The notes beneath the pieces were generated by a model that saw only the letters and a list, made by a program, of their open reading frames with translations, was not told the origin of the DNA and did not search any database. From positions 1 to 30,223 of the IMG/VR virus record IMGVR_UViG_3300013099_000060: a stretch of DNA of 30,223 nt; one strand, 5' to 3'. The position numbers and the translations under genes were made by a program. The stretch comes from a virus. The first letter of the stretch is position 1. Each line of letters opens with the position of its first letter. This document shows positions 963 through 29,655 of this stretch, one piece after another.

Positions 963-970
963 TATAAATA
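963..970 (+). promoter_or_regulatory. T4-late-type promoter box TATAAATA (upstream copy)
   Basis: A perfect TATAAATA is followed by CAAATATT. It stands 31 bases before a second perfect copy. By analogy with T4 late promoters, transcription would start around 976. No gene with a ribosome binding site follows, only the inverted-repeat region. Confidence 0.5.
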
Positions 971-993
971 CAAATATTAAAAATCACCACCTA

Positions 994-1001
994 TATAAAT
1001 A
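994..1001 (+). promoter_or_regulatory. T4-late-type promoter box TATAAATA (downstream copy)
   Basis: A perfect TATAAATA is followed by AAAACATAA, matching the extended form seen before the portal and other virion genes. The expected start of RNA is around 1007, leading directly into the structured non-coding region. Confidence 0.55.
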
Positions 1002-1317
1002 AAAACATAAAAAAAGAACAAAACTTGATTATGTCGATGATTCGGGATTGGAAACAATTACTGTAAACAAGCTATAATTGAGCCTATTACTGCTTTGATG
1101 CCTGAGTGCGAACTAATCTCAGGCTAGTACAGATAGGGACGGCAAAAGAACCCGTGAACGAATAAAGACCCAGACCACAAGTTACACCGGCTGACTATAT
1201 TCAAACAGACATACTTTGGGACAATAACTTTAGTATGTTAGGTAGGACGTTATATGTTTAGTTCTTATCCAATCCTACTGAGAGATTCGCTGATAGATCT
1301 CTTCTAAACAAACTGAT

Positions 1318-1377
1318 GGTATATCAATATTATCTGAAATATATTTCAACTATTTCACCAGATTATATTGATATACC
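1318..1377. repeat. 19-bp imperfect inverted repeat with palindromic AT-rich core
   Basis: GGTATATCAATATTATCTG (1318-1336) and CAGATTATATTGATATACC (1359-1377) are reverse complements with one mismatch. The 22-base spacer starts with the palindrome GAAATATATTTC (1336-1347), and TATTTC at 1351-1356 can also pair with GAAATA. As RNA it would form a long hairpin. As DNA it could be an operator or replication-related site. Confidence 0.8.
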
Positions 1378-1442
1378 TTCTTTTATTACGGGGTTATCAG
1401 CTCCCCACTTTGCCTAGAGACTAAACACAAAAAAAAGAACTT

Positions 1443-1498
1443 CAACCAGAACGTTCACTCGTGAACGAGATGGTTGTTTTCGGTTCCCTCGAAAACAA
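1443..1498 (+). repeat. two overlapping, mutually exclusive hairpins
   Basis: Hairpin A pairs CAACCA (1443-1448) with TGGTTG (1471-1476), and inside it CGTTCA (1452-1457) with TGAACG (1462-1467) around a CTCG loop. Hairpin B pairs TTGTTTTCG (1474-1482) with CGAAAACAA (1490-1498). They share bases 1474-1476, so they either stack end to end or compete. CGTGAACGA at 1460-1468 also occurs at 1153-1161, giving another possible partner for 1452-1458. Confidence 0.7.
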
Positions 1499-1530
1499 AC
1501 GATAAGATATAACATCTGCAGCACGTCACT

Positions 1531-1657
1531 ACTGCCCCCCTCCCCTGGGAATGCGTCGATCACAAGCACACAACACGTTTCAGAGTAAGGACAGGTTTCC
1601 CCCAAGAGAGGGGGAGAGAGAAGGGGGGAAACAGTCATCCCGCCCACGAGGGGCAGT
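1531..1657 (+). repeat. nested inverted repeats (8-bp outer and 9-bp inner helix)
   Basis: ACTGCCCC (1531-1538) is complementary to GGGGCAGT (1650-1657), enclosing GTTTCCCCC (1595-1603) complementary to GGGGGAAAC (1624-1632). GCCC (1642-1645) and GGGC (1651-1654) form an alternative small hairpin. The area is strongly purine/pyrimidine biased, so some pairing may be compositional. Confidence 0.55.
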
Positions 1658-1956
1658 CTGACTAAAGACCTTTTCTGTATTAGTTTAGTTTAGGGATCAG
1701 GTCTTCTAGCAGCGTCCATATGCTAACCCTAGCCAACTACTTTGCTTGCAACCCTTCAGAGAAATTATCCTAAATCCGTCCAGCCATAACTATAAATGGG
1801 TGGCGCGGAATGTTGTGGCGTCCAGAATTAGAGCTAAATTTAGATCTTTATATAGACCCTTATTTGGTACTATATGTCGCCCTATGTTGGGGCGCGGCAC
1901 CCAATGAAGTTTCCGGTGTCCAGCGGGGCTTGAAGGCGTCCAGCGGGGCTTGGTGT

Positions 1957-1987
1957 CGGACGGTTCACCGTCCGAGTGTCCCTTTTT
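1957..1987 (+). terminator. GC-rich hairpin followed by a short T run
   Basis: CGGACGG (1957-1963) and CCGTCCG (1968-1974) form a perfect 7-bp stem with loop TTCA. TTTTT comes at 1983-1987, eight bases beyond the stem, so it is a weak terminator or simply a structural hairpin. Two direct copies of GTCCAGCGGGGCTTG (from 1918 and 1938) lie just before it. Confidence 0.35.
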
Positions 1988-1993
1988 GGAGGT

Positions 1994-2001
1994 GATAAAT
2001 A
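1994..2001 (+). promoter_or_regulatory. late-promoter-like box GATAAATA overlapping an SD-like string
   Basis: GATAAATA followed by GACGTG is one base from TATAAATA but lacks the RAACA extension. It overlaps GGAGGTGAT (1988-1996), a full complement of the 16S rRNA 3' end, although no gene follows. A transcript started here would meet the terminator at 2105-2136 before the gene at 2249. Confidence 0.2.
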
Positions 2002-2104
2002 GACGTGTACTGATACTGATGTCTTGGTCCTTTTCTTGATCGATCCTTAGCCATTATTCAGTAGGTGTCCAGTTTGGTCCCTGGCCCTGTTCTTCGGTAC
2101 ATCT

Positions 2105-2136
2105 AAAAGGTCTGGCTAATACCCAGGCTTTTTTTT
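2105..2136 (+). terminator. strong rho-independent terminator
   Basis: GTCTGG (2110-2115) pairs with CCAGGC (2123-2128, one G-U pair) around a 7-base loop, followed directly by eight T (2129-2136). AAAAG upstream (2105-2109) can extend the stem into the T run. This is the clearest transcription stop in the first 15 kb and closes the non-coding region. Confidence 0.8.
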
Positions 2137-2248: not shown

Positions 2249-2677
2249 ATGCGACATAATAACCCTGTCCCCAAGAGACGTGGCCAGAACGAGACCTATC
2301 AGAAGAGGCACTATAGCAACCTAACCCACCATGACATTTCTGAGGTTAAGGAACTTATGGATGATATCCAGATGTACTGTTTCTTCCTTAGTGGTCTTAT
2401 TGACCGTCCAGAGAACATCAACAAGACTAGGCTTAACAAAGACAAGACCACTTACATCAGACATATTCAAGACTTATGCAACGCTGCAGAAAGCCTGAAG
2501 AAATATGTTGACCGTCAGATCCCTAACCTATCAACTAAGATGAGACACTACGGGAGACATGATCGGATCAAGACTTGTATACATGATATGATCTATGACC
2601 ATGAGCCAGCAGAGGACAGTGCGGTGATAACCCCTGAGCCCGTGATCATTCCTAAGAAGACCAAGAAGACTAAATAG
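2249..2677 (+). CDS. basic hypothetical protein, 142 aa, upstream of terminase
   Basis: The frame is open from a GTG at 2141, but I place the start at ATG 2249. The GTG directly follows the terminator T run and has no ribosome binding site, and the intervening bases form two perfect hairpins. GGAG at 2237-2240 sits 8 bases before ATG 2249. The product begins MRHNNPVPKRRGQNETYQKR and is strongly basic at both ends (tail PKKTKKTK). Between lies a helical region (HHDISEVKELMDDIQMYCFFLSG). No family is recognised. The position just before the small terminase and the charge would suit a DNA-binding packaging or regulatory role, but nothing proves it. Confidence 0.65.
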   Translation: MRHNNPVPKRRGQNETYQKRHYSNLTHHDISEVKELMDDIQMYCFFLSGLIDRPENINKTRLNKDKTTYIRHIQDLCNAAESLKKYVDRQIPNLSTKMRHYGRHDRIKTCIHDMIYDHEPAEDSAVITPEPVIIPKKTKKTK

Positions 2678-2682
2678 TTTTA

Positions 2683-2768
2683 ATACCTGGTGGTCTTTTA
2701 GCCACTACCATTAGGTATAGAGAGGACCCAGGAAGGCCTCGTTCCCTCCTTACGAGGTGGGTCCTCTC
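2683..2768 (+). repeat. two stem-loops between the 2249 gene and the small terminase
   Basis: The first pairs ATACCT (2683-2688) with AGGTAT (2713-2718), continued by GGT/ACC inside. The second is a perfect 11-bp stem, GAGAGGACCCA (2720-2730) with TGGGTCCTCTC (2758-2768), enclosing CCTCGT (2737-2742) paired with ACGAGG (2752-2757), which abuts the outer right arm. Only a weak T run follows (CCTTTATT), so it is a poor terminator. A terminase recognition site or RNA control element is possible. Confidence 0.65.
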
Positions 2769-2792
2769 GTCCTTTATTCAGAGAGATTATAA

Positions 2793-3230
2793 ATGGTTGC
2801 AACACCTCAAACACCCAAGAAAGGTACTTACACTAATAACGTTGTTAGTCGGGAAGAGATAGAGGCCAGGCCACAGGGCCGCAGAGGCAGGCCGCCTGGT
2901 GCTAAGGGTAAGAAGAACTTAGCTATTGAACTGGCTGGTGGTGTGTCGGCCTTAGAGACCTTAGCCAAGGAATATGAATCCCCATTACAATTTCTAGCAA
3001 GAATATACTCTAATAAGAAACATCCAATTCTTGTCAGAACACAGGCCGCCCAGGCTTGTCTACCCTATTGGCACTCGAAGGTAGCAACTAAGATTGAGGT
3101 TACCGGGGAGGAAGGTGGCCCAATTGAAATTGCCACAGCAGACGCTAAGACTAAACTATCCTCAGCCTTATTAGGTGTGGTGATAGATGGTCACCTAGAA
3201 CAGGACCTGCTAGAAGATGACTCCGAATAA
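2793..3230 (+). CDS. terS: terminase small subunit
   Basis: The protein has 145 aa. Small terminases bind the packaging start site on phage DNA and bring in the large subunit. The N-terminal part carries an AT-hook-like basic stretch, GRRGRPPGAKGKKN (about residues 29-42), a common opening of phage small terminases. A helical segment follows (SPLQFLARIYSNKKHPILVR), then the RTQAAQACLPYWHSK block typical of this group, and an acidic C-terminus. ATG 2793 has only a weak purine-rich ribosome binding site (GAGAGA). The gene overlaps the large terminase start by 14 bases, so translation is probably coupled. No TATAAATA box with the extension precedes it. The stem-loops at 2683-2768 do. Confidence 0.8.
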   Translation: MVATPQTPKKGTYTNNVVSREEIEARPQGRRGRPPGAKGKKNLAIELAGGVSALETLAKEYESPLQFLARIYSNKKHPILVRTQAAQACLPYWHSKVATKIEVTGEEGGPIEIATADAKTKLSSALLGVVIDGHLEQDLLEDDSE

Positions 3231-4527
3231 CCTATCCCAATTAGAACTGTTAGCACTGCAACCTGATAGTGTTAAACAGGCGTTGTTGGATAACCTTAGT
3301 GATGATGAGATCCTAGACTTGATGCACGACGTCACCGTTGTAGGCAGGCCTAAACAAATAGTACCTGATGGCGATTGGTCAACGCTGTTAGTGTTGCCTG
3401 GGCGAGGATTTGGTAAGACCTGGATGGGTAGTCATTGGGTTAACCTAATGGCTAAAGAATATCCTGGTTGTAAGATTGGTCTAATCGGAGAGACCGTGGC
3501 TGATGTCAGAGACACTATGATCCAAGGAGAATCAGGGATAGTAACTCTAGCCCATCCTAAACATATGCCTGTCTATACACCTAGCAAGCGTAGGATAGAT
3601 TGGCCTAATGGTTCCAGTGCCTTAACGTTCTCTGGAGAAGAACCTAAACAATTACGTGGCCCACAGTTTCATTTCAGCTTAGTTGATGAGCTGGCTAAGA
3701 TGAGATACCAATCAGAGGTATGGGATATGCTATCCTACTGTATGAGGTTGGGAGAACATCCCAGGGTGCTGATAACCACTACCCCACGGCCCACAACTCT
3801 GATTAAGGAACTCTATAAAGATCCTGATGTAGTGGTTATCGAGGGCAGCACGTTTGAGAACAGGGCATTGCCTAAACGATTCCTGGATCAACTAAGAAAG
3901 AAACATGATGGTACTCGATTAGGTCAGCAAGAATTATATGGTAAGATCCTGGAAGACAATCCTAATGCTATGTTCATGTATGATGACATCAATGAGAACA
4001 GGGTAGAGAAAGCTCCGACTAATATGAACCGTGTGGTTATTGCGGTTGATCCTGCTGTGACCAGCAATGAGAACAGCGATGAGACCGGGATAACTATTTG
4101 TGGTGCTATTGGAATGGATCAGGGATATGTCTTAGGAGACGTCTCTATCAAGGCCTCTCCAAACGAATGGGCCAAGGCCGCCGTCGCAGCGTACTATGAT
4201 TATGGTGCTGACTGTATGGTTGGAGAGGTTAACAATGGCGGGGACATGATTGAAGCCCTTATTAGGAACGTTGACCCTTTAGTTAACTATCACAGCGTTA
4301 GAGCAACCAGAGGGAAAGCTATTAGAGCAGAACCTATTGCTGCTCTATATGAACAAGGCCGTATACATCATGTGGGCGCGTTCGAGATCCTAGAAGATCA
4401 GATGATTAGTTTCGACCCATCCTTAGGCAACAATCAGAAAAGTCCTGATAGAATGGACTCCTTGGTCTGGGCCTTGACTGAACTGTTTGGCCAAGAACTT
4501 AACGAAGTTCGTATAACCATTTTCTGA
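3217..4527 (+). CDS. terL: terminase large subunit (packaging ATPase and nuclease)
   Basis: The protein has 436 aa, the normal length. This motor pumps DNA through the portal and cuts the concatemer. The N-terminal ATPase domain shows Walker A LPGRGFGKT (residues 60-68), Walker B FSLVDE (153-158, with catalytic E158) and the coupling motif ITTTP (186-190). The C-terminal RNase H-like nuclease shows VIAVDPA (D278), VGEVNNGGD (E337) and SPDRMDSLVWAL (D411, D414), the expected acidic residues. The ATG at 3217 lies inside the end of terS, with AGGA at 3202-3205. It ends 42 bases before the portal, with a late-type promoter box in the gap. Identification is secure, but the packaging strategy (cos or pac) cannot be read from it. 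Confidence 0.95.
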   Translation: MTPNNLSQLELLALQPDSVKQALLDNLSDDEILDLMHDVTVVGRPKQIVPDGDWSTLLVLPGRGFGKTWMGSHWVNLMAKEYPGCKIGLIGETVADVRDTMIQGESGIVTLAHPKHMPVYTPSKRRIDWPNGSSALTFSGEEPKQLRGPQFHFSLVDELAKMRYQSEVWDMLSYCMRLGEHPRVLITTTPRPTTLIKELYKDPDVVVIEGSTFENRALPKRFLDQLRKKHDGTRLGQQELYGKILEDNPNAMFMYDDINENRVEKAPTNMNRVVIAVDPAVTSNENSDETGITICGAIGMDQGYVLGDVSIKASPNEWAKAAVAAYYDYGADCMVGEVNNGGDMIEALIRNVDPLVNYHSVRATRGKAIRAEPIAALYEQGRIHHVGAFEILEDQMISFDPSLGNNQKSPDRMDSLVWALTELFGQELNEVRITIF

Positions 4528-4533
4528 TCCTAT

Positions 4534-4541
4534 TATAAATA
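4534..4541 (+). promoter_or_regulatory. T4-late-type promoter box before the portal gene
   Basis: TATAAATA followed by AAACATAT is the clearest example of the extended box. It sits between terL and the portal start at 4570, followed by GAGAGGAG as ribosome binding site. The expected leader is only about 23 bases. Confidence 0.7.
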
Positions 4542-4569
4542 AAACATATATTAATTTAGAGAGGAGCCC

Positions 4570-6039
4570 ATGGCAAATATTATATCCCGATACATCTTTG
4601 GCAAACCTGAGACAAAAGAGGCAGGTGCGGCCACCACCATTTATGAGCTGATGGACTTACTTCCAGCCTCGTGGGGTGAACGGAACTATGACCAGTTTGC
4701 TAAAGAAGGCTATCAGAAGAACGTCATAGTGTTCCGGTGCATCAACGAGATCGCTGGAGCAATCGCCTCTCTAGACTGGCGGGTGGTTGACCCTGATGGC
4801 GAGATCATTGATAACCATCCATTGATTGAGCTATTGAAGAGACCCAACCCAATGAATGGCGGCGCGTCATTCTTCCAACAATTGGAAACGTTCAAACAGT
4901 TAGCAGGGAACGCTTACATCCATCGGGTCGGACCTGATGGTAGACCACCACAAGAACTATACCTCCTGGCCCCGTCATCTATGACCGTTGTCCCAGGCTC
5001 CTCCAGGATACCTAAAGAATATGTTTACAAACCTAAGAGCACCTTAAATGGTGCCACTATATTTCAGGTTGATCCTGTTAATGGTTCCAGCGAGATCCTA
5101 CACCTACGCACAGCTAACCCTCTTAATGAATGGATAGGCCTGAGTCCAATGGAAGCAGCTGCTTGGTCAGTTGATCTCCACAATCAATCCAATGAATGGA
5201 ACAACCGTCTCCTAACGAATGGGGCGAGACCTTCTGGTGCATTGTTTGTGAAAGATTACTTAAGAGAAGACCAACGGTCTCATGTTAAAGAAGCCTTGAA
5301 AACAGATTCAATGGGGTCATATAACGCTGGCAAGCCTATGCTATTCGAGGGAGACATGCACTGGCAAGAGATGAGCCTATCTCCTAAAGACTTAGATTTT
5401 CTAAACGCTAAGGCCACTGCTGCTAAAGATATTGCCATGGCATTCCGCGTGCCGCCTATCCTATTGAACATTGGATCGGACACCACCTTTGCTAATATGA
5501 AAGAGGCCCGTCTATCCTTATGGGAAGATACCATTCTACCTGAAGCAGACTACTTGAAAGACGAATTCAACAATTGGTTAACCCCGCTCTTTGGGGATAA
5601 CATTACATTAGAATATGATATTGAGAACGTTCCAGCGTTAGCACCTAAACGGGAGATACGTTGGAAGATGATTGAAGAGGCAACTTTCTTAACAGTTGAT
5701 GAGAAGAGAGCCGCTGTTGGTTATGAACCGCTTGGGGCCGGCGAGTCTATCGGGAACCCAGAGCCTACAAATGATGAGCCTGGCTCCGACGACGATGAGC
5801 AGGATGATGAGGCGCAACAGAAGTCCGAGCTAGACTCCACTCAAGCGGTTCAACTAGTTGAAGCATATACCAGAGAGATGGTTAAGACTGATCTCTCCTA
5901 TGACCACTATCATAATATTGATAATGAATTTAGTACTGGGATGACTGAGAGCAACCAGGACCATGAGCATTCCTATATTAAAGGTGCTAAGAAGACTGGG
6001 ATAACCCTTTACCACACCCACCCAATCATAGAGGAATAA
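4570..6039 (+). CDS. HK97-family portal protein with histidine-rich C-terminal tail
   Basis: The protein has 489 aa. Portal rings sit at one capsid vertex, nucleate head assembly and pass DNA. The body matches the HK97 portal group: VIVFRCINEIAGAIASLDW near the N-terminus, HPLIELLKRPNP, the ILHLRTANPLNEWIGLSPMEAA region, and the AKDIAMAFRVPPILLNIG segment with downstream FANMKEA. After about residue 395 comes an acidic linker (EPGSDDDEQDDEAQQ), then a tail with three HxH motifs: H446-Y-H448, H465-E-H467 and H482-T-H484. Such HxH pairs often bind metal ions in phage structural proteins. The tail is not part of the portal core. The start is ATG 4570 after GAGAGGAG. The next gene begins 3 bases after the stop. 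Confidence 0.92.
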   Translation: MANIISRYIFGKPETKEAGAATTIYELMDLLPASWGERNYDQFAKEGYQKNVIVFRCINEIAGAIASLDWRVVDPDGEIIDNHPLIELLKRPNPMNGGASFFQQLETFKQLAGNAYIHRVGPDGRPPQELYLLAPSSMTVVPGSSRIPKEYVYKPKSTLNGATIFQVDPVNGSSEILHLRTANPLNEWIGLSPMEAAAWSVDLHNQSNEWNNRLLTNGARPSGALFVKDYLREDQRSHVKEALKTDSMGSYNAGKPMLFEGDMHWQEMSLSPKDLDFLNAKATAAKDIAMAFRVPPILLNIGSDTTFANMKEARLSLWEDTILPEADYLKDEFNNWLTPLFGDNITLEYDIENVPALAPKREIRWKMIEEATFLTVDEKRAAVGYEPLGAGESIGNPEPTNDEPGSDDDEQDDEAQQKSELDSTQAVQLVEAYTREMVKTDLSYDHYHNIDNEFSTGMTESNQDHEHSYIKGAKKTGITLYHTHPIIEE

Positions 6040-6042
6040 CCT

Positions 6043-6831
6043 ATGCCATTCTTAAGAGATCGTCGAAACGTTTCCATACAGCACTTAGGAATCAACGCTG
6101 GTGCTGGGATGCTAAGAGGGATTGGATCAGAATTTAAATTTGGCACCAACCCTGATGTTGGCTCAGCTGATGAGACTATCTGGGCATACGGTGGATTATA
6201 TTCCTATCCTTTGATAGCAGCTATCATGACCCTATCCAGCAGCAACACCAATGATTATGCTACCGGAACAGGCGCTCAGTCAGTTAGAATATATGGTTTG
6301 GACGCTAATTATAATGAGGTCACAGAAGACCTTACCCTGCACGCCACTGATGGTCTATTAGGGGTTAATACTATCCTAAGCTATCTTAGAGTGTTCAGGA
6401 TATACGTCTTGACTGCCGGATCAGCTGACACTGCTGCTGGCAATCTCTATATGGGTACTGGAGCTATTGTTGCTGGAGAACCAACCAACGTCTATGGTAT
6501 GGCACCACTAGGACATAATCAAACCTTACAAACGGTATATACTATCCCTGCTGGTAAGACTGGATATATCTTACGTTGGAATATGTCAGTGAACAGCGGT
6601 AAGATTGCTGACGTTGACTTGAAGATTAGAGCACCCGGAGAGGTGTTCGCCACTAAGATGTCCGTGAACATCTACCAAACAGCGTACACACAAGAATTTA
6701 GCTTACCCTTTCCATTACCGGAGAAGGTTGATCTAGAGATGAGGGCAAGCGTTGCCTCTAGTGGTGGAGACGTCTCCGCGTCGTATGAAATATTATTGGT
6801 CGACAATGACCTGATATTAAAGAATCTATAA
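6043..6831 (+). CDS. virion structural protein, 262 aa
   Basis: The start is ATG 6043, with GAGGA at 6031-6035 lying in the last portal codons, so it is translationally linked to the portal. The product is rich in Gly, Thr, Ser and Ala with short beta-strand patterns. It has the pattern GGLYSYP, then LSSSNTNDYATGTGAQSVRIYGLD, then NEVTEDLTLH, then LRVFRIYVLTAGS and NLYMGTGAI. I recognise this order from unnamed virion proteins of marine podo- and siphoviruses, where it is annotated only as structural. No enzyme motif, signal peptide or membrane segment is seen. A capsid-associated or neck role is likely from its place next to the portal, but the exact location is unknown. Confidence 0.7.
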   Translation: MPFLRDRRNVSIQHLGINAGAGMLRGIGSEFKFGTNPDVGSADETIWAYGGLYSYPLIAAIMTLSSSNTNDYATGTGAQSVRIYGLDANYNEVTEDLTLHATDGLLGVNTILSYLRVFRIYVLTAGSADTAAGNLYMGTGAIVAGEPTNVYGMAPLGHNQTLQTVYTIPAGKTGYILRWNMSVNSGKIADVDLKIRAPGEVFATKMSVNIYQTAYTQEFSLPFPLPEKVDLEMRASVASSGGDVSASYEILLVDNDLILKNL

Positions 6832-15034: not shown

Positions 15035-15436
15035 ATGAGAGATATTCATAATAACATTGCGGTTGAAGTTGCCTTGTCCCCACAGACAATTGCCACTAAT
15101 ACCACCACCGTTGGAGCTATCATCGACGCTGCTGCACAAGGCGGTATTGAGTTTGTGATCGCGTCCGGTACCTTGGTTGATGGGGCTTATGCCGTATTGA
15201 TTGAGTCTGGAAACGAGTCTAACCTGTCTGACGCAGCCGCTGTTGACGACAAATTTCTTTTAGGCACAGAAGCTGACGCTAGTTTCGCACTGGCTGATGA
15301 TGACCTGGCTAAAAAGATTGGTGTAAAAGCACACAACAAACGTTATGTTCGTTTGTCTATTGTTTCAACCGCTACCACAAGTGGTGGTGAATTGAGTGCT
15401 GTTGCAGTCAAAGGACCATATATCCTTCCTGCATAA
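15035..15436 (+). CDS. probable head decoration / capsid-associated protein, 133 aa
   Basis: The start is ATG 15035 after TAAGGAATT. The product has the form MRDIHNNIAVEVALSPQTI, then GAIIDAAAQGGIEFVIASGT, then VLIESGNESNLSDAAAVDD, then FLLGTEADAS and finally KRYVRLSIVSTATTSGG. I recognise this as a small structural family found right after the capsid gene in many phages. It is probably a decoration or head-stabilising protein, though I know of no experimental proof for this family. It is predicted beta-rich, without Cys or membrane segments. It lies between the capsid hairpin (14982) and a strong terminator (15465), so it is the last gene of the capsid transcript. Its relatively frequent CGT codons also suggest high expression. 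Confidence 0.7.
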   Translation: MRDIHNNIAVEVALSPQTIATNTTTVGAIIDAAAQGGIEFVIASGTLVDGAYAVLIESGNESNLSDAAAVDDKFLLGTEADASFALADDDLAKKIGVKAHNKRYVRLSIVSTATTSGGELSAVAVKGPYILPA

Positions 15437-15501
15437 ATATCTAATATAGATATGTAACCAGACGAAAGGGCGATGGTGAGAAATCTCCATTGCCCTTTTT
15501 T
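15437..15501 (+). terminator. rho-independent terminator closing the capsid transcript
   Basis: AAAGGGCGATGG (15465-15476) pairs with CCATTGCCCTTT (15487-15498; one G-T/U pair) around a 10-base loop, and six T end at 15501. A separate small palindrome, ATATCTA (15437-15443) with TAGATAT (15447-15453), precedes it. Confidence 0.8.
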
Positions 15502-15518
15502 AATAGGATGATATTAAT

Positions 15519-15731
15519 ATGAAAACAGTACTGATCATTAAACAATGTAAAGCTAGCGTTAAAGGCGTTCCACAAACCCTCTTGGTCGGCAAGGAATATG
15601 AGGTTGATAACTTTCTATCCAATCAATTGGTAATCAGAGGTAACGCTAAGATAGTCGAGGCTGGGTCAACCAAACAGATGGTTCCTTTCGAGGACAAGGC
15701 CCTTAGTGAATATGAGAACAAGGAGATTTAA
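15519..15731 (+). CDS. hypothetical small protein, 70 aa, head module
   Basis: The start is ATG 15519, preceded by ATAGGATGAT. The 70 residues read as a compact beta-rich domain: MKTVLIIKQCKASVKG, then LLVGKEYEVDNFLSNQLVIRG, then NAKIVEAG, with an acidic tail. No family can be named. Small proteins of this size and shape are common between capsid/decoration genes and the first connector in HK97-type modules. The gene directly abuts the connector gene, whose ribosome binding site (AAGGAG) is in its last codons, so the two are probably co-translated. A head-assembly or head-tail junction role is inferred from position only. Confidence 0.65.
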   Translation: MKTVLIIKQCKASVKGVPQTLLVGKEYEVDNFLSNQLVIRGNAKIVEAGSTKQMVPFEDKALSEYENKEI

Positions 15732-29070: not shown

Positions 29071-29655
29071 ATGGAATTAAAGACTTATTTTGTTAGTGGT
29101 TATATGAGATCTGGCACCTCCATGATGATGAAAGCCCTAGAATCCGGTGGGTTAACCGCAGCCCATAACACCATCAGAAATGAAATGAACACTGAGTTTG
29201 GTGATGAACACTATCAACCTAATGAAGGTGGTTTCTATGAACTTCACAAGTCCCAATATAGAGACGACAACTTTCCTTATGCATATGAGGGTATGTTGAT
29301 CAAATTACTTATGGGTGGGATAACCTCAATTGGGGCTGGGAATTATAACATAGTCTTTATGGTTAGAGATTTCGAAGAGATCACCCAATCTCATAACGCC
29401 TTCTTTGATCATCCACCTAAGATGAATGCTGATCGGTATGAGTTTATGAAGAATAAAAATATCGGGATTCTAGAACAGAGAAGAGATATTAACCTAACCG
29501 TACTAAACTATCGAGACGTGGTGGATGACCCAACTAGGGAATTTACTAAGTTGAAAAATGCTGGATGGGAGATAGATGTTGAGAAATGCACAGGTATTGT
29601 TGATGTGTCAAAATGCAGATTTAGATTGGAAGATCTGCAGGTTGGGGTTGTTTAG
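29071..29655 (+). CDS. sulfotransferase-like P-loop protein, 194 aa
   Basis: The start is ATG 29071 with TAGGGATGAT upstream. The N-terminus VSGYMRSGTSMMMKALESGG (residues 8-27) fits the 5'-phosphosulfate-binding loop of sulfotransferases (G..RSGTs.l). NIVFMVRDFEEITQSHNAFF contains Arg99 and Ser107 with eight-residue spacing, the 3'-phosphate-binding pair. YRDVVDDP (147-154) matches the later conserved 'Y.dl..dp' position. These proteins transfer sulfate from PAPS to sugars, lipids or proteins. At 194 residues it is short, and the acceptor cannot be inferred. It lies after the tail-module terminator, overlapping the next structural gene by one base (TAGTG). Sulfation of a virion or host surface glycan is a possible use. 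Confidence 0.7.
   Translation: MELKTYFVSGYMRSGTSMMMKALESGGLTAAHNTIRNEMNTEFGDEHYQPNEGGFYELHKSQYRDDNFPYAYEGMLIKLLMGGITSIGAGNYNIVFMVRDFEEITQSHNAFFDHPPKMNADRYEFMKNKNIGILEQRRDINLTVLNYRDVVDDPTREFTKLKNAGWEIDVEKCTGIVDVSKCRFRLEDLQVGVV

Follow-up and report, generated by a model that had tools for sequence, protein, structure and literature searches.

Introduction

The most abundant transcript of phage ICP1 is a non-coding RNA of about 800 nt, encoded in an orf-less space of about 1 kb ahead of the lysis cluster (PMC7567579), and phage K produces two large non-coding RNAs, lnc001 and lnc002 (PMC9241854). GOLLD and ROOL were found to assemble cages that consist of RNA only (PMC12286853). GOLLD, ROOL and the dominant ICP1 transcript are abundant and elaborate RNAs whose function is not known. 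We analysed an entire IMG/VR virus record, linear, 30,223 bases long and without end repeats, hereafter the window, for which an initial annotation had proposed a giant structured RNA near one end. The record holds an ORF-less space on the scale of those that house the ICP1 and phage K RNAs (about 0.6-1.2 kb). Our main reading, to which we give a probability of about one half, is that this gap encodes a large non-coding RNA of about 1.1 kb, made late and akin in kind to the ICP1 and phage K RNAs.

Results

A non-coding gap ahead of the terminase genes

Judged by its proteins, the phage is a lambda/HK97-like siphovirus. The 30-kb record is probably partial and covers mainly the structural module, with small and large terminase, portal, protease, major head protein, tape measure and a J-type tail fibre. 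All genes lie on the + strand and are tightly packed, leaving one conspicuous gap.

622-897, + strand: ORF upstream of the gap (ORF list)
898-2248, + strand: ORF-less gap of 1,351 nt between the ORFs at 622-897 and 2249-2677, 5' of terS and terL (ORF list, codon-usage scan, PHROG matches)
2249-2677, + strand: ORFan of 142 aa that follows the gap and precedes terS, ATG start at 2249
2793-3230, + strand: terS (PHROG match)
3217-4527, + strand: terL (PHROG match)

The absence of a plausible gene, as first annotated, was borne out when all six frames of 898-2248 were scored on the phage's own codon usage. The best frame scored no more than about 0, whereas real genes had a mean of +0.32 and a 5th percentile of +0.09, which speaks against a hidden or broken gene. 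No credible match to a group I or group II intron was obtained within the gap with Rfam, and a search for tRNA (over the whole window) and tmRNA returned none.

The ORFan that follows the gap has a basic N-terminus and a helical structure predicted at low confidence (AlphaFold pLDDT 53, uninformative). A longer frame, 2141-2677, had no match in PHROGs, and none was found among the phages searched. Elsewhere in the record, a fragment at 1-228 weakly matched PHROG 314, a family of homing endonucleases (E 6.5e-4), and matched PHROG 11371 better. A 262-aa protein encoded after the portal gene (6043-6831) was closest to a virion protein family of T4-like Synechococcus and Prochlorococcus phages and of a Manatee Spring phage (44%), a likeness that suggests gene exchange with cyanophages or with a cyanobacterial host. 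At the end of the tail module, 29071-29655 gave a weak sulfotransferase match (PF13469) below the cut-off.

Tandem late-type promoters and an intrinsic terminator bracket non-coding DNA

The predicted transcript and the elements around its ends are listed here.

904-951, + strand: hairpin of 22 bp with a 4-nt loop, separating the promoters from the gene upstream (fold against shuffles)
963-970, + strand: late-type promoter box 1, exact TATAAATA (motif enrichment)
994-1001, + strand: late-type promoter box 2, exact TATAAATA followed by AAAACA (motif enrichment)
1007-2136, + strand: predicted non-coding RNA of about 1.13 kb (promoter/terminator bracket, six non-coding frames)
2105-2136, + strand: intrinsic terminator, 11-bp stem and U-run (terminator call, fold)
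2159-2180, + strand: 8-bp hairpin 3' of the terminator and ahead of the next gene (z -4.5)

Both boxes described at the outset are perfect copies, and they stand in tandem within duplicated surroundings of 21 nt; box 2 carries two mismatches to the extended consensus of this phage, TATAAATAAAACA. The octamer TATAAATA occurs eight times in the window, on the + strand only, where 2.5 copies were expected and zero shuffles reached eight. For ATAAATA, 14 copies were counted on the + strand and none on the - strand; 12 of them are intergenic although intergenic DNA amounts to only 2,327 nt. The extended consensus is common to several copies, ahead of structural genes, and in the nearest relative the same motif lies near gene starts. 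Because it is enriched, intergenic and one-stranded, has an extended consensus and recurs in a relative, the motif is very likely a real regulatory motif of the T4 late-promoter type. With T4 geometry, transcription would start at about 976 from box 1 and about 1007 from box 2. Further copies, with the extended form, are found across the structural module (at 4534, 6827, 17358, 21452, 28061, 28487 and others), and several of the boxes run into the stop codon of the gene before them.

At the other end, the terminator that had been annotated is present as a hairpin at 2105-2133 followed by a U-run, with a folding energy of -11.2 kcal/mol (z -2.8). Since tandem late promoters and a terminator bracket non-coding DNA, the simplest meaning of this arrangement is a late non-coding RNA of about 1.13 kb. 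The part of the initial annotation that proposed a discrete, late and protein-free transcript is in this respect well supported by the promoter motif, the terminator and the non-coding composition. Upstream of the promoters, and outside the interval annotated at first, the hairpin at 904-951 (-25.6 kcal/mol, z -6.0, 0 of 200 shuffles as good) is an even better stem than the long arm pair at 1315-1380 described below; it could possibly be an insulator or an RNase III site.

The same elements could belong to a long 5' leader or attenuator of the packaging operon, with the tandem promoters serving ORF 2249, terS and terL and the terminator limiting or timing their expression through partial read-through. 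Between 2002 and 4534, we found no ATAAATA box in a position to drive 2249-4527, and an ATAAATG at 2789 overlaps the start codon of terS. The terminase genes thus lack a dedicated late box and may be served by the gap promoters, which counts against the non-coding RNA reading. A similar layout is present at 15430-15525, where a strong terminator-like hairpin comes after the box at 15433 and gene 15519 then follows with no other box in between, so that read-through may be usual in this phage. The hairpin at 2159-2180, beyond the terminator, also fits a leader. However, a length of 1.1 kb goes far beyond what an attenuator needs, since the last 30 nt or so would suffice, and the excess of sense-strand folding is located at the far 5' end. 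We consider a leader unlikely.

Predicted folding is concentrated in the 5' half

The main elements of the fold predicted for the non-coding RNA are listed here.

1014-1020/2088-2094, + strand: predicted closing helix of 7 Watson-Crick pairs (pairing probability 0.91)
1044-1276, + strand: predicted multibranch domain of the 5' half; a 9-bp helix (1044-1052/1268-1276) closes it
1315-1380, + strand: long hairpin with 22-nt arms (1315-1336/1359-1380), 20/22 paired (91% complementary)
1443-1476, + strand: two-tier hairpin, CAACCA/TGGTTG with inner CGTTCAC/GTGAACG (z -3.1)
1525-1662, + strand: domain rich in C and G, in which alternative hairpins overlap; ACTGCCCC/GGGGCAGT closes it (z -1.8 only)
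1956-1975, + strand: 8-bp hairpin TCGGACGG-TTCA-CCGTCCGA (z -3.5)

Nine or more inverted repeats had been regarded as a sign of unusual structure. We counted 13 stems above threshold, which is near chance: shuffled sequences gave 10.3 +- 2.2, and 51 of 300 shuffles reached at least this count. The fold of the whole region has a z of -2.5 to -3.5, and coding stretches of the same phage range from -0.7 to -8.9. The inverted-repeat count and the whole-region fold are within the range of the phage's coding stretches, and they count against the non-coding RNA reading.

The fold excess lies in the 5' half. Segment 1020-1560 reached z -5.0 in the sense orientation (0 of 200 shuffles) and -2.7 in the antisense orientation, and it surpassed all coding windows of the same length that we tested (best -3.35). 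For 1020-1310, the values were -2.7 sense versus +0.1 antisense. A sense RNA would be expected to fold better, relative to shuffles, in the sense than in the antisense orientation. Nothing stands out in the 3' half, which has a z of about -0.7 to -1.4 against shuffles. Among single elements, the long arm pair that had been noticed by eye holds: the hairpin at 1315-1380 has z -6.2 alone and is better than 300 of 300 shuffles of the region, and it is clearly not a chance feature. The hairpins at 1956-1975 and 1443-1476 are weaker and were chosen after the fact. The 3' arm of the closing helix, 2088-2094, is immediately 5' of the terminator, and a helix of equal length was found in 3.3% of shuffled end pairs. 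Thermodynamics and strand asymmetry support the giant structured RNA first proposed in the 5' half and in a small number of hairpins only.

As yardsticks, known RNAs were passed through the same fold method. The ROOL of pMP118 gave z -1.3 sense versus +0.2 antisense, the ICP1 non-coding RNA gap -2.4 and phage K lnc002 -5.5. As a real ROOL scores just -1.3, a functional RNA can be neither demonstrated nor dismissed on the strength of fold energy.

These results also bear on whether the gap could be decayed or horizontally acquired cargo, that is, dead genes or inserted DNA devoid of function. The near-chance number of inverted repeats would fit this origin, as would the lack of any homologue found (see below) and the endonuclease-like ORF fragment at 1-228. 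But the tandem promoters and the terminator are intact, the 5' half is much more stable than its shuffles, and coding composition has left no trace in the gap. We consider functionless cargo very unlikely.

Searches for known RNA families and for relatives

Rfam 15 gave no credible match, either at the gathering score or at E<5. For GOLLD (RF02032), the window was searched at the gathering score, the gap was scanned at E<5 and a direct search was made at E<=10, and none of these returned a match. The ROOL model (RF03087) likewise found nothing in the window; it was the one model with a positive control, in which it detected the pMP118 ROOL at E 1e-29. A nearby tRNA, which is a frequent though not obligatory companion of GOLLD, is absent from the window. 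The initial annotation had suspected that neither family would fit, and these searches speak against membership of the gap RNA in GOLLD or ROOL.

A short repeat of the gap entered both the search for relatives and the weighing of alternatives.

1817-2072, + strand: four copies of GGYGTCCAG (at 1817, 1915, 1935 and 2064; sequence scan)

The motif has no further copies in the window on either strand. The copies at 1915 and 1935 sit within an 18-nt tandem repeat. To find relatives by synteny, TerL, portal, MCP, TerS and a 15-mer taken from the 18-nt repeat were used as queries in one scan of genomes and eight of viruses; in one scan, a synthetic second alignment row was used solely for choosing the TerL stretches searched and played no part in any other analysis. 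INPHARED, PLSDB and the IMG/VR and GTDB loci compared yielded no homologue of the gap, and INPHARED and PLSDB no DNA match. Without a homologue there is no covariation, which counts against the non-coding RNA reading. The 15-mer GTCCAGCGGGGCTTG was present in 66 contigs, with one copy each and no extended nhmmer similarity, and these matches were put down to chance.

The viral scans and the genome scan all converged on one closest relative, a pair identical over the stretch compared (L091/L092), with 54% identity in TerL, 48% in portal and 56% in MCP between L092 and the window phage. In L092, an ORF-less gap of 946 nt (4376-5321) lies immediately before terS. It contains three copies of an element of about 83 nt at a spacing of about 70 nt, and one perfect 16-bp hairpin. 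Its sequence has no similarity to the window, and it shows no promoter/terminator bracket and no terminator call on the + strand. The two phages have the place of the gap in common and differ in its content, judging by these sequences. Most other relatives, with TerL at or below 50%, have no large gap before terS. An exception is L186, which has an ORF-poor stretch of about 1.28 kb (1-1276) before terS at the contig start. This phage-like contig is filed in a Flavobacteriaceae MAG, and the stretch contains short tandem repeats (GACGTAGGGTAAACT). An apparent gap in another locus (L202) was a filter artefact, with smaller ORFs inside.

Packaging sites often adjoin terS. The gap might accordingly be a DNA element, such as a pac or cos site for packaging initiation or a replication site, whose repeats and palindromes are bound by TerS or another phage protein and whose transcription is incidental. 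The position of the L092 gap, with repeats inside, and of the L186 stretch fits this explanation, as does the restriction of GGYGTCCAG to the gap. Since the L092 gap shares place and not content, a conserved RNA family is weakened and a DNA element beside the terminase genes is strengthened. On the other hand, ORF 2249 and the terminator stand between the gap and terS, the spacing of the GGYGTCCAG copies is irregular, a DNA element needs neither two dedicated promoters nor a terminator, and the fold differs between sense and antisense orientations. We consider a DNA element unlikely, as we do a leader.

Discussion

Altogether, what had first been observed at this locus was partly confirmed, and its interpretation was partly supported. 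We propose the following scenario for a late non-coding RNA. Transcription from about 976 or 1007 to 2136 would depend on a sigma factor similar to T4 gp55 and specified by the phage. The transcript would then fold, its ends being joined by the 7-bp helix just 5' of the terminator. The multibranch domain and the long hairpin would make up a well-ordered 5' half, and the repeated GGYGUCCAG elements would lie in a 3' half of lower order. Such a transcript may build up late in infection as a stable RNA. By analogy with what has been proposed for GOLLD and ROOL, it would most likely act as a scaffold, a decoy or an RNA-only assembly. Start sites, late timing, abundance and function are in this scenario what we infer, and the promoter motif, the terminator, the hairpins and the lack of coding are what the sequence shows. 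A more specific proposal, which we find doubtful, is that the gap represents a new family of late, highly structured phage RNAs of about 1.1 kb, unrelated to GOLLD and ROOL, with tandem T4-type promoters and packaging genes of a siphovirus as neighbours, and possibly involved in packaging or RNA-only assembly. If the non-coding RNA reading is true, this further unrelated case, clearly delimited by promoter and terminator and situated beside packaging genes, would suggest a repeated origin of large RNAs among phages and provide another setting in which their role could be studied.

Compared with known systems, the locus is like that of the lytic phage ICP1 in its ORF-less gap of about 1 kb, in the lack of tRNAs, in the similar length and in a similar fold excess (z -2.4 in ICP1, -2.5 here). 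The two differ in sequence, with no similarity, and in genome place, and expression has been shown in ICP1 whereas it is inferred here. The phage K RNAs lnc001 and lnc002 are also non-coding RNAs of 0.6-1.2 kb in an ORF-less gap, and lnc002 has a pronounced fold (z -5.5), but they are AT-rich, lie beside tRNA genes and show no sequence match. GOLLD shares with the predicted RNA a phage-borne location, a length of over 800 nt and an expected late expression; its covariance model has no match here, however, and no tRNA is near the gap. ROOL is likewise a large phage-borne RNA of unknown function, but its model, which has 574 positions compared with about 1,130 nt for the predicted RNA, finds no match, and there is no tRNA island here. 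As for the promoters, the octamer TATAAATA is identical to that of T4-type late promoters and is likewise intergenic, one-stranded and ahead of structural genes, yet the genome that carries it is lambda/HK97-like by its proteins. The gap RNA would probably join the large phage non-coding RNAs, an already-known kind that has no common family.
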